Origin: an uncultured Roseburia sp.
GTDB taxonomy: Bacteria; Bacillota; Clostridia; Lachnospirales; Lachnospiraceae
DNA: 6,207 nt
Reading direction: 5' to 3'
NCBI GenBank assembly: GCA_946055175.1
Contig: CAMGET010000088.1
Coordinates: 1 to 6,207 of the forward strand
Under the pieces are notes generated by a model. The model saw only the letters and a program-made list of their open reading frames with translations, was not told the origin of the DNA and searched no databases. Below are positions 3,760-6,207 of the stretch, piece by piece; the stretch's first letter is position 1, and each line of letters opens with the position of its first letter. The position numbers and the translations under genes were made by a program.

Positions 3760-5394
3760 ATGAGAAAATATGTGAGAATCATTTATGGAATCAGTGTTAC
3801 GCTTGCGTTTTTAATGCTTCTGCTCTTTCATTTTCATGAAAAAACAGATTCTGTTGTCATGCGCACAGATGATAGCTATGAAATAGTGAATGATTACGAA
3901 TTTTCCACTTATGACGATGAGACCGCACCTATTGGCGTTGTTCAAGAATATAAATGGGTTCTTGGAAACATTCCAAAGCACGATGCCTGTGTTACCTTCT
4001 ATCTCATTCATCAGGAAGTGGAAGTTTATATCGGAGATGAATTAATATATAGTTTAAAGCGCCCTACCGAGCACAATTTTTCTAAAACAACCGGTTGCCT
4101 CTGGCCACAGATTTTTTTATACGAAGAAGATGCCGGGAAAGAAATCCGTATCCTTGTCCGCCCGATTTACCAGAGCAGCCTTCGGAATCACCTTACGATT
4201 TATCTGGGTGATCACAGCGTCATTCTGGATACGCTTGTTGAAAGGAATATACCTATTCTGGTTATCAGCCTTTTTGCGGTTTTAGTTGGTTTAGCTTTCC
4301 TTATCTTCATTTTTTATAATATAAAGAATGTGGAAATTGACCGAAGTATTTTTATGCTTGGAATTTTTTCTATTTTAACAGGTTTATGGAAAATTTCTGA
4401 TATGGAAGCGGCAACTTTAATTTTTCATGATTCTCTGGTGATGTCCGCAATTTCCATTATTGCAATTTCCTTAGCGCTTGTGCCATACATGTATTTCATT
4501 CAGAGACAGTTTCAGCATTCTAATCGTTTTATCTGGGATTTACTATGCATTATTATCAGTGTCATTACCATTGGACTAACTCTTTTACAGTTATTCGGTA
4601 TTGCAGATTTAAGAGAAACACTTACTATCTGTCATGGTACGGCCATCTTCGGTATTATTTTTATTCTATTAACGTTAATGAAAGAAGCAAGACAGGGGAA
4701 TTTTTCACCAAAGCTTAAGCTGACTGCAGTTTGCTGCGCTCTCTGCATGATTGGTGCCATTGTAGATTTAACAATTTACTATACTTCCGGTAATTCCGGA
4801 AATATGTTATTTTGTTTAGTAGCTTTTCTGTTCTATGTTATCGCAATGGGATATGTAACCTTAAAAGAAACCAAACAGTTAATGGACCGTGGTCAGAAAG
4901 CCACTCATTATCAGAATCTTGCCATGCACGACGAGCTTACCGGGCTTTTCAACCGCGCCCATTATGCAGATTTTATCTCTAAAAACAATGTTTTACAAAG
5001 TGACTGTTTTGTTATCATGATGGATGTCAACAATTTAAAACTTTGCAATGATACGCGTGGACACGACTGTGGTGACCATCTGTTAATTAATAGTGCGAAC
5101 CTGATCAGACAGGCCTTTCCATCCGGTGTCTGCCATCGTATCGGTGGAGATGAGTTTTGCATTTTACTTTGTAACTCCAGCGCTGAAGAATGCCAGAACT
5201 GTCTGAATCATTTTGAACATTTAACAGCAGAATTCAACGCTGCTCACCCGGAAGAATTCCCTGTGAACATTGCTTATGGCTACGCAAGCCATATTGTAAA
5301 CATTGATTTTGACTTTAATGATACTGTGCGCCGTGCAGATCGTATGATGTATCAGGTGAAACTCTCGATGAAGACACAGGGAAGGGGTATTTAG
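3760..5394 (+). CDS. Membrane diguanylate cyclase with 7TM-type sensor and GGDEF domain
   Basis: This 544-residue enzyme should make cyclic di-GMP from two GTP at the inner face of the membrane. Layout: TM1 at about 7-25; an extracellular beta-rich domain at about 27-162 (VEVYIGDELIYSL, EIRILVRPIY); seven TM helices at about 163-186, 195-212, 225-247, 257-280, 287-307, 320-341 and 348-367; then a short linker and GGDEF domain from about 390. This resembles 7TMR-DISM receptors, in which the outer domain often binds carbohydrate-like ligands. The catalytic parts are intact: DELTGLFNR (391-399), metal-binding Asp422 in DVNNLK, GHDCGD (434-439), GGDEF (462-466) and RADRMMYQVK near the end. The RxxD inhibitory site expected at 453-456 reads FPSG, so product feedback there is absent. 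It has its own promoter. A link to sugar sensing is suggested by its neighbours but unproven. Confidence 0.93.
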   Translation: MRKYVRIIYGISVTLAFLMLLLFHFHEKTDSVVMRTDDSYEIVNDYEFSTYDDETAPIGVVQEYKWVLGNIPKHDACVTFYLIHQEVEVYIGDELIYSLKRPTEHNFSKTTGCLWPQIFLYEEDAGKEIRILVRPIYQSSLRNHLTIYLGDHSVILDTLVERNIPILVISLFAVLVGLAFLIFIFYNIKNVEIDRSIFMLGIFSILTGLWKISDMEAATLIFHDSLVMSAISIIAISLALVPYMYFIQRQFQHSNRFIWDLLCIIISVITIGLTLLQLFGIADLRETLTICHGTAIFGIIFILLTLMKEARQGNFSPKLKLTAVCCALCMIGAIVDLTIYYTSGNSGNMLFCLVAFLFYVIAMGYVTLKETKQLMDRGQKATHYQNLAMHDELTGLFNRAHYADFISKNNVLQSDCFVIMMDVNNLKLCNDTRGHDCGDHLLINSANLIRQAFPSGVCHRIGGDEFCILLCNSSAEECQNCLNHFEHLTAEFNAAHPEEFPVNIAYGYASHIVNIDFDFNDTVRRADRMMYQVKLSMKTQGRGI

Positions 5395-5400
5395 TCCATT

Positions 5401-5680
5401 AAATTATTTTGACATAAAGTAGTTGCACAATAAGAAAGAGTATCCTTTATTTTTTATGCGGTCATACATGTATAAGAAACTCTACCATTCCTATCTGTAA
5501 GTTATTCAAAGCTGACGCGCCGCATCGTAGCGGAGTCCATTCCGCTCGATGCTGAAAATGACATCCTGTCATTTTCTCGCTGTTAATGTAATAGGAATGA
5601 AGAGTTTCTAATACATTCCAAAACGCATTAAAAATAAAGGATACTCTTTTTTATTGCAATCTACTTTATGGAAATAATTT
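5401..5680 (+). repeat. Structured palindromic element, copy A (3' of GGDEF gene)
   Basis: This 280-bp noncoding unit starts 6 nt after the GGDEF stop codon and folds on itself over its whole length. Paired arm segments are 5401-5422 with 5661-5680, 5423-5460 with 5624-5660 (including a 20-bp perfect run with AAAGAGTATCC), 5475-5483 with 5601-5609 (AGAAACTCT/AGAGTTTCT), and CATTCCTAT with ATAGGAATG. The stem closes a core at 5514-5581 holding two side-by-side hairpins. Copy B further right is homologous along the full length in reverse orientation. No open reading frame is evident. It could be a structured RNA or 3' UTR element, a complex terminator, or a non-autonomous mobile palindromic repeat. 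Family not recognised. Confidence 0.85.
5514..5581 (+). ncRNA. Conserved two-hairpin core of copy A
   Basis: Hairpin 1 (5522-5552): GCATCG, one bulged T, AGCGGA, loop GTCCAT, TCCGCT, CGATGC. Hairpin 2 (5554-5576): GAAAATGACA, loop TCC, TGTCATTTTC, ten perfect pairs. A short GCG/CGC pairing encloses both, giving a three-way junction on top of the long stem. By eye 62 of 68 bases match the core of copy B, and one pair covaries (G5527-C5547 here, A-T in B). Such conservation with covariation is the signature of a selected fold. Calling it an RNA, rather than a DNA-level palindrome, is inference. Confidence 0.55.
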
Positions 5681-5689
5681 ACTGAAGCC

Positions 5690-5736
5690 AAATACTAGCT
5701 TTAAAAGTTTCGCAAGCCTTGGAAATGCTAGTGTTT
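5690..5736. other. Hairpin between the two palindromic elements
   Basis: AAATACTAGC (5690-5699) pairs with GCTAGTGTTT (5727-5736) through ten positions including one T-G wobble, with a 27-nt loop. It sits in the 64-bp gap between elements A and B. Read on the plus strand it ends in GTTTTG and on the minus strand in ATTTGG, so it might weakly stop transcripts from either convergent gene, but the T-runs are short. The gap holds nothing else I can identify. Confidence 0.4.
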
Positions 5737-5744
5737 TGCTACAA

Positions 5745-6028
5745 AATTTAATTTATCGTTACGTATATTGAAGAGAGAAAGAGACTGACTTTTTTCTGTT
5801 CGTTTGGAAGCATACTAGAAATTCTTTATCCATATTTCATAACATAGCGCGAAAATGACACGATGTCATTTTCAGCATCAAGCGGAATGGACTCCGCTTT
5901 GATGCGGCGCGTAAGCATTAGAAAACTTACTTATATGGATAATTGAATTTCTTGTATGCGTACATCCGAATAGAAAAAAGTCAGTCTCTTTCTCTCTTCT
6001 TCAATATACGAAACTATAAATTCAAATT
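5745..6028 (-). repeat. Structured palindromic element, copy B (3' of CPBP gene)
   Basis: This 284-bp noncoding unit is in reverse orientation to copy A. On the minus strand it begins 13 nt after the stop codon of the partial membrane protease gene, mirroring copy A's place after the GGDEF gene. Arms 5762-5802 and 5967-6010 are near-perfect inverted repeats (one 3-nt insertion, one G-T wobble). Pairing extends outwards through 5745-5761 with 6011-6028, and inwards via AGAAATTC (5952-5945 with 5824-5817) and TTATCCATAT with ATATGGATAA. The core lies at 5846-5913. Distal arms differ in sequence from copy A but align with it and remain paired. There is no coding capacity. Possible identities are as for copy A. 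Confidence 0.85.
5846..5913 (-). ncRNA. Conserved two-hairpin core of copy B
   Basis: Read on the minus strand, hairpin 1 (5905-5875) has the same GTCCAT loop and AGCGGA/TCCGCT stem as copy A, with an A-T pair in place of G-C and a bulged A in place of T. Hairpin 2 (5873-5851) has the same ten-pair GAAAATGACA stem with loop TCG instead of TCC. Changes fall in the loop, the bulge, at the edges of the core, or as a compensated pair, so pairing is preserved. A four-base GCGC/GCGC closing helix is present, one pair longer than in copy A. Confidence 0.55.
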
Positions 6029-6041
6029 CTGCACTAAATAT

Positions 6042-6207
6042 CTATAACGCAAGGCATGCCACAATAAAATTCATCGTACCATGCAGCAGCCAGCTGGAAA
6101 CAATGGAACCGCCGCATCGCTTTTCGTTAAGCCATCCCTGGAACCAGCCAAAAGCCCCCGGAAGAATGGTTAATAACACAGTAACTGTTATATTATGCAT
6201 AGCTAAA
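6042..6207 (-). CDS. CPBP-family intramembrane metalloprotease, C-terminal fragment
   Basis: Only the last 54 codons are in the window; the start lies beyond the right edge. The visible part has a hydrophobic segment (ITVTVLLTILPGAFGWFQGW), a short polar turn NEKRCGGS, and SSWLLHGTMNFIVACLAL to the end. HGTMN matches the HxxxN motif near the C-terminus of CPBP (CAAX-protease and bacteriocin-processing, Abi/Rce1-like) membrane proteases, where the His is a metal-site candidate. The EExxxR and FxxxH motifs expected upstream are outside the window, so activity cannot be judged. Roles in this family include peptide processing and self-immunity to bacteriocins. It converges on the GGDEF gene and has palindromic element B directly after its stop. 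Family call moderately firm, substrate unknown. Confidence 0.7.
   Translation of the reverse strand, partial: LAMHNITVTVLLTILPGAFGWFQGWLNEKRCGGSIVSSWLLHGTMNFIVACLAL

Follow-up and report, generated by a model that had tools for sequence, protein, structure and literature searches.

TwoAYGGAY RNAs as dispersed elements: a divergent pair in an uncultured Roseburia, with self-matching arms and cores found inverted in place in related genomes

Two elements, A and B, in a 6,207-nucleotide stretch of DNA from an uncultured Roseburia sp. (GenBank assembly GCA_946055175.1, contig CAMGET010000088.1; this whole stretch is ‘the window’ below) are two divergently placed copies of a known RNA family, TwoAYGGAY (Rfam RF01731). 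What is new is the form this family takes: a dispersed element whose fast-changing arms match each other within a copy, and whose core has been found flipped in place. The explanation that we favor, and regard as fairly probable, has two parts: the RNA core would sequester CsrA through GGA-containing loops, and the arms would be kept matched by copying at the DNA level, which would also flip the core.

Comparison with Rfam places element A on the minus strand with 98.5 bits and element B on the plus strand with 104.3 bits, against a cutoff of 43, and both matches cover model positions 1-168, the whole of the model. Another Rfam match, n00280, was dropped at 24.8 bits, below its cutoff of 65.2. 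In the repeat scan A and B form an inverted pair over 132 nt at 80%, which bears out the inverted homologous pair reported in a preliminary description made from the letters alone. That description saw no known RNA or repeat class in the elements, which the Rfam comparison shows to be wrong, and placed them at 5401-5680 and 5745-6028, correctly as to location, with ends judged by eye now slightly wider. The features of the pair are as follows.

about 5387..5699, minus strand: element A, whole (ends by eye, from an alignment of the five copies of its own genome and the orthologous locus L193)
5461..5623, minus strand: element A RNA core, TwoAYGGAY RF01731, 98.5 bits
5554..5576, minus strand: element A hairpin 1, loop CAGGATG, GGA present
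5530..5545, minus strand: element A hairpin 2, GCGGAATGGACTCCGC, ATGGAC loop
5428..5483, no strand: element A distal and middle stem, arm 1 (partner 5601-5656, 84%; repeat scan)
5601..5656, no strand: element A distal and middle stem, arm 2 (repeat scan)
5691..5735, no strand: A-B junction, where the facing element ends, AATACTAGC and GCTAGTGTT, form a near-inverted repeat (from the sequence)
about 5729..6044, plus strand: element B, whole (ends by eye, from alignments)
5803..5966, plus strand: element B RNA core, TwoAYGGAY RF01731, 104.3 bits
5851..5873, plus strand: element B hairpin 1, loop CACGATG, GGA lost
5882..5897, plus strand: element B hairpin 2, GCGGAATGGACTCCGC, ATGGAC loop, GGA present
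5770..5824, no strand: element B distal and middle stem, arm 1 (partner 5945-5999, 89%; repeat scan)
5945..5999, no strand: element B distal and middle stem, arm 2 (repeat scan)

The distal stems span 56 nt in A and 55 nt in B, and the repeat scan adds outer arms at 5397-5409 / 5672-5684 in A and at 5744-5774 / 5998-6028 in B (31 nt, 87%). The distal stems had been described as unlike in sequence and perfectly paired; unlike and paired they are, but at 84-89% complementarity over their full length rather than perfectly, while the middle-stem change from AGAAAC/GTTTCT in A to AGAAAT/ATTTCT in B is as claimed. Anchored arm scores reach 64 in A and 80 in B, where 300 shuffles each gave no more than 7 and 11, and the predicted RNA folds have energies of -120.5 kcal/mol for A (z -16.0 versus shuffles) and -136.5 kcal/mol for B (z -19.4). 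The two RNAs point apart; they are flanked by a GGDEF gene and by a short frame on the minus strand for which Pfam gives no match. The TAG stop codon of the GGDEF gene (window 5392-5394) lies inside the conserved outer end of A, so that gene and element adjoin without a gap. The same divergent pair stands beside homologous sequence covering the GGDEF gene in an uncultured Roseburia MAG (locus L193).

Five TwoAYGGAY copies are present in the window's own genome, which is 69% complete, and 24 of 60 genomes of the same genus carry between 1 and 38 copies each. In a phylum survey of 398 genomes, 34 pass the RF01731 cutoff and 51 match at E 0.001 or better. The set of 156 copies used below includes 36 of the 38 copies counted in G016, 32 of 33 in G014, 21 of 24 in G052, 15 of 22 in G054, 18 of 22 in G004, 13 of 15 in G050, 5 of 5 in G000 and one from each of 16 more genomes; it omits L022, one genome's representative, which is cut by a contig end.

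Pairing within a copy, combined with differences between copies, is a family-wide trait of the arms. Scored outward from the core, 147 of the 156 copies pair with their own arm at 30 or more (mean 54.5), whereas pairing with the arm of another copy reaches that level in 18 of 1248 comparisons (mean 1.5). It is these counts that extend what the preliminary description saw in two copies, and proposed to check in further ones, to the family at large. The two highest of the 18 cross-copy pairings come from orthologous sites. The top score, 152, belongs to a flipped site, and arises because the left arm and flank of one genome equal the right arm and flank of the other. For 19 more distant genomes, represented by one locus each, arms are shorter and weaker, with own scores of 0 to 50. 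By eye, the inner and terminal stretches of the arms are more alike between sites than the outer arms are, and a coupled change in arm length can be seen at C10:14095 / 2273859. An automatic count of matched indels in the arms was discarded, as it mostly reflects the position of the stem end. At G014 C16:94699 and G016 C1:2999324, the same place by their flanks, the arms are wholly unlike and each pairs with itself; replacement or a separate insertion could have produced this.

Cores are also found in both orientations between the same flanks. Flank matching between G014 and G016 yields 22 orthologous sites, with the core in the same orientation at 16 and in the opposite orientation at 6. At some of the 16 the strong match is confined to one side, and at 94699 / 2999324 the arms are the unlike ones just described. 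In alignments of 4 of the 6 opposite sites, the core is reversed while the flanks and outer arms around it are alike. All six flipped cores are closest to their positional ortholog (0.92-0.99), the next among the 36 G016 cores being at most 0.895. Between G036 and G051 there are 7 orthologous sites, 3 of them opposite; the core is the positional ortholog at two of the three (0.976 and 0.982) but not at the last. A strict tally therefore gives 8 cores inverted between the same flanks among 29 orthologous sites in two species pairs. Within Agathobacter rectalis (NZ_CP143948.1 versus G016), none of 4 common occupied sites is flipped, so flipping appears to be slow; at a fifth site both flanks are present without a core match.

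There is a likely common source for these two properties. In the favored explanation, one outer arm would be copied onto the other at the DNA level, by template switching or by recombination, which would keep the arms complementary, and the same copying would flip the core in place. We infer that arm copying and core flipping are one process and that a dedicated recombinase would be unneeded. Template switching and recombination between the arms are expected to leave the same marks. Template switching between inverted repeats is described as homogenizing the arms and inverting the spacer in the accessible portion of PMC8604942, and as creating and maintaining RNA stems in that of PMC8794818. 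The systems in these excerpts have in common with ours arm homogenization with spacer inversion, and multi-base stem repair, but the yeast spacers are a few bases long, whereas the position of the spacer is taken here by a conserved RNA, ~165 nt in length and belonging to a dispersed family.

One pattern would count against DNA copying, as it would be unexpected if single cores flipped freely: in the fetched set, close pairs (less than 2.5 kb apart) are divergent in 14 of 14 cases, likewise the window pair, although the 14 are not independent, some being orthologous or paralogous to each other. Genomes with close divergent pairs are G016, G014, G052, G004, G050, G051 and G027, and in G052 the spacers of several such pairs are alike. 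A bolder reading, which we hold only tentatively, is that of a self-inverting mobile element with a regulatory RNA as its payload: a dispersed CsrA decoy between arms rewritten in step, which would spread and flip through Firmicute genomes and whose copy number would tune CsrA. Mobility itself is compatible with the DNA-copying explanation.

In RNA, G-U pairs are tolerated and A-C pairs are not, and the mismatches of arms and core differ in this respect. Isolated mismatches in the distal arms, defined by at least 3 pairs on both sides, comprise 64 G-U, 68 A-C and 62 others, and a second arm set of 42 copies, 3 of them common to the first, gives 17, 24 and 15 respectively. In the core, 33 pairs reach 80% Watson-Crick pairing, and these show 85 G-U against 26 A-C. 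The contrast between arm and core has p 1e-5, with copies that are related and not independent. However, an arm G-U becomes an A-C when the core flips, and for this reason equal G-U and A-C in the arms is insufficient as an argument against RNA selection, with which it is by itself compatible. Independent of this caveat are coupled transversions, which have no G-U intermediate. Among 716 aligned arm pairs at orthologous sites (omitting two sites, one whose arms are non-homologous and another whose core is non-orthologous), there are 19 coupled changes, 13 transitions and 6 transversions, beside 52 other changes. Single changes between orthologs are of transversion type in 15 of 46 cases, a similar share, and include 19 G-U and 12 A-C, a slight lean toward G-U that would weigh against DNA copying.

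The same lean would favor a distal stem that is part of the working RNA and is kept paired by ordinary compensatory selection, a reading that we judge rather unlikely. The retention of pairing but not sequence in 147 copies, the very stable predicted folds and the 13 coupled transitions, for which a G-U route is possible, all agree with it. It is opposed by the missing G-U excess in both arm sets next to a clear one in the core, and by the coupled transversions in their single-change proportion, and it leaves inversion in place unexplained. Copying of whatever had mutated would likely fit the arms better than compensatory selection, on small numbers. The preliminary description had offered a choice between selection for the fold and a process that rebuilds the palindrome. 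The first alternative suits the core, a Rfam family with G-U excess in its well-paired positions and with GGA loops retained; the second is the better fit for the distal arms, given their equal G-U and A-C, their coupled transversions and the cores inverted in place.

Inversion in place is also what an inverton would show; the core would then be turned around between inverted repeats by a site-specific recombinase, and might act as a switch. The 8 sites that hold this DNA in both orientations between species would be explained, but outer arms that are unlike from site to site, as the cross-copy comparisons show, are unsuited to a single recognition site, an objection softened by the greater likeness of the inner and terminal stretches. 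No flip was found at the four sites within A. rectalis, and orientation relative to the nearest upstream frame of at least 100 aa is balanced at 71 versus 71, with 14 of the 156 copies without a call. We consider an inverton distinctly improbable. A cis-regulatory or 3′ UTR reading was rejected on the same balance of orientation. The crude frame call places 21 of the 156 cores inside a frame of at least 100 aa.

REPINs and BIMEs are dispersed palindromes that often occur as inverted pairs. The TwoAYGGAY copies share these traits with REPINs and BIMEs (see PMC3116915) and differ in being ~300 bp long with an RNA-like core. If the copies were MITE- or REPIN-like mobile elements, opposite orientations would be separate insertions at the same place, which we regard as very improbable. 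Copies are dispersed, patchy, intergenic-looking and found in inverted pairs, and unlike cores or arms do occur at one place (G036 C5:972 / G051 C2:30239 and G014 C16:94699 / G016 2999324). Nine G014 sites without a listed G016 counterpart were resolved in G016 as empty (2), other sequence (1) or a copy (4, of which 3 partly deleted), with 2 unresolved. The two empty sites favor mobility, yet no clear target-site duplication was found at them, and the 6-7 bp direct repeats seen there by eye fit insertion and deletion alike. Against separate insertions, the flipped core is the positional ortholog at 8 of 9 opposite-orientation sites. The case made earlier against a mobile element, that its copies would keep like ends, is nonetheless weak, since copies are dispersed at 1 to 38 per bearing genome, patchy within the genus and missing from 2 of 9 tested sites in a relative.

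Several replicons and records touch on the placement of copies. On the 243-kb second replicon of G054 (C2), equal in sequence to the Roseburia sp. 831b plasmid NZ_CP135163.1, there are 3 listed copies. One A. rectalis copy with its flank had no match in the phage collection and matched one record in the plasmid collection, where the window A/B pair had none. NZ_CP143948.1 (Agathobacter rectalis DFI.5.28) bears a plasmid label, yet it holds genes for ribosomal proteins, RNA polymerase and elongation factors, and looks like a piece of chromosome. Contigs of the MAG CALZGM01 stop within copies (L187, L190, L192, L197), and L191 and L190 join as half-copies at hairpin 2; these are likely assembly breaks at the repeat.

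Misassembly at repeats in draft genomes is a hardly credible source of the inversions. G014, G036 and G051, which bear flips, are drafts, contigs of the draft G027 stop within copies, and long perfect arm matches occur at one flipped site (51 bases, G014) and at another (36 and 43, G036/G051). At 7 of 9 opposite-orientation sites, however, the longest stretch of perfect arm matching in the drafts measures 13-29 bases, short relative to usual assembly words. Site 512070 is flipped in G014, and there a complete A. rectalis record bears out the one-contig G016.

The RNA part of the favored explanation concerns the core, a candidate for CsrA sequestration through its GGA hairpin loops. CsrA binding of TwoAYGGAY was proposed by Gardner and colleagues from motif matches (PMC4333381, in its accessible part), and the C-ANGGAN-G context is the loop form of RsmE/CsrA ligands in the part of PMC7652899 available to us. 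GGA is present in both hairpin loops, in this context, in 137 of 156 near copies and in 19 of 19 distant ones; loop 1 has lost it in 14 of the 156 and loop 2 in 5. Window A has GGA in both loops and window B in loop 2 only, the loss in loop 1 being common to B and two sister copies in its own genome. These one-GGA copies would count against a CsrA sponge. One CsrA gene is present in the window's own genome. Across the survey, with the RNA called at E 0.001, CsrA accompanies it in 49 of 51 genomes and occurs in 236 of 347 others (Fisher p 3e-6, kinship ignored); with the RNA called at the cutoff, the figures are 33 of 34 and 252 of 364 (p 1e-4, kinship likewise ignored). The two RNA-bearing genomes in which CsrA was not found are 94% and 75% complete, and within the genus 56 of 60 genomes have CsrA whether the RNA is present or absent. 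Judged from sequence, GGA retention and co-occurrence with CsrA support the published sponge proposal, and the core would be transcribed and bound by CsrA. Much like CsrB/RsmZ-type RNAs, as covered in the same part of PMC7652899, TwoAYGGAY presents GGA in ANGGAN hairpin loops in a host with CsrA; the CsrB/RsmZ type has many sites on one RNA, whereas a TwoAYGGAY molecule has two and its gene is repeated many times, with CsrA binding putative. One core pair, 15/149 in L001 numbering, lies in the middle stem and is an oddly constant wobble, being G-U in 148 of 155 copies.

The TwoAYGGAY motif has been known since 2010 (Weinberg et al. 2010, PMC2864571, available excerpt), and its external stem is called ‘not well conserved’ in the accessible text of PMC4333381. 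Both window elements match the whole Rfam model; that model describes the core only, and the copy-specific, invertible arms found here extend beyond it. In the TwoAYGGAY/RF01731 literature within reach of the search, outside which subscription journals mostly lay, neither inversion and multi-copy spread nor divergent pairs and up to 38 copies per genome were found described, as far as the accessible portions of those papers go.

Taken as an RNA family, TwoAYGGAY gains a testable target in CsrA and an unusual multi-copy, mobile-like lifestyle. A functional RNA structure is ordinarily proven by covariation of its base pairs. The TwoAYGGAY element combines two situations: its core bears the signature of RNA selection, and its arms covary likely through DNA copying, a process of which inversion in place is a further sign. 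The family is a natural test bed for the claim that covariation in RNA can be imitated or sustained by template switching.
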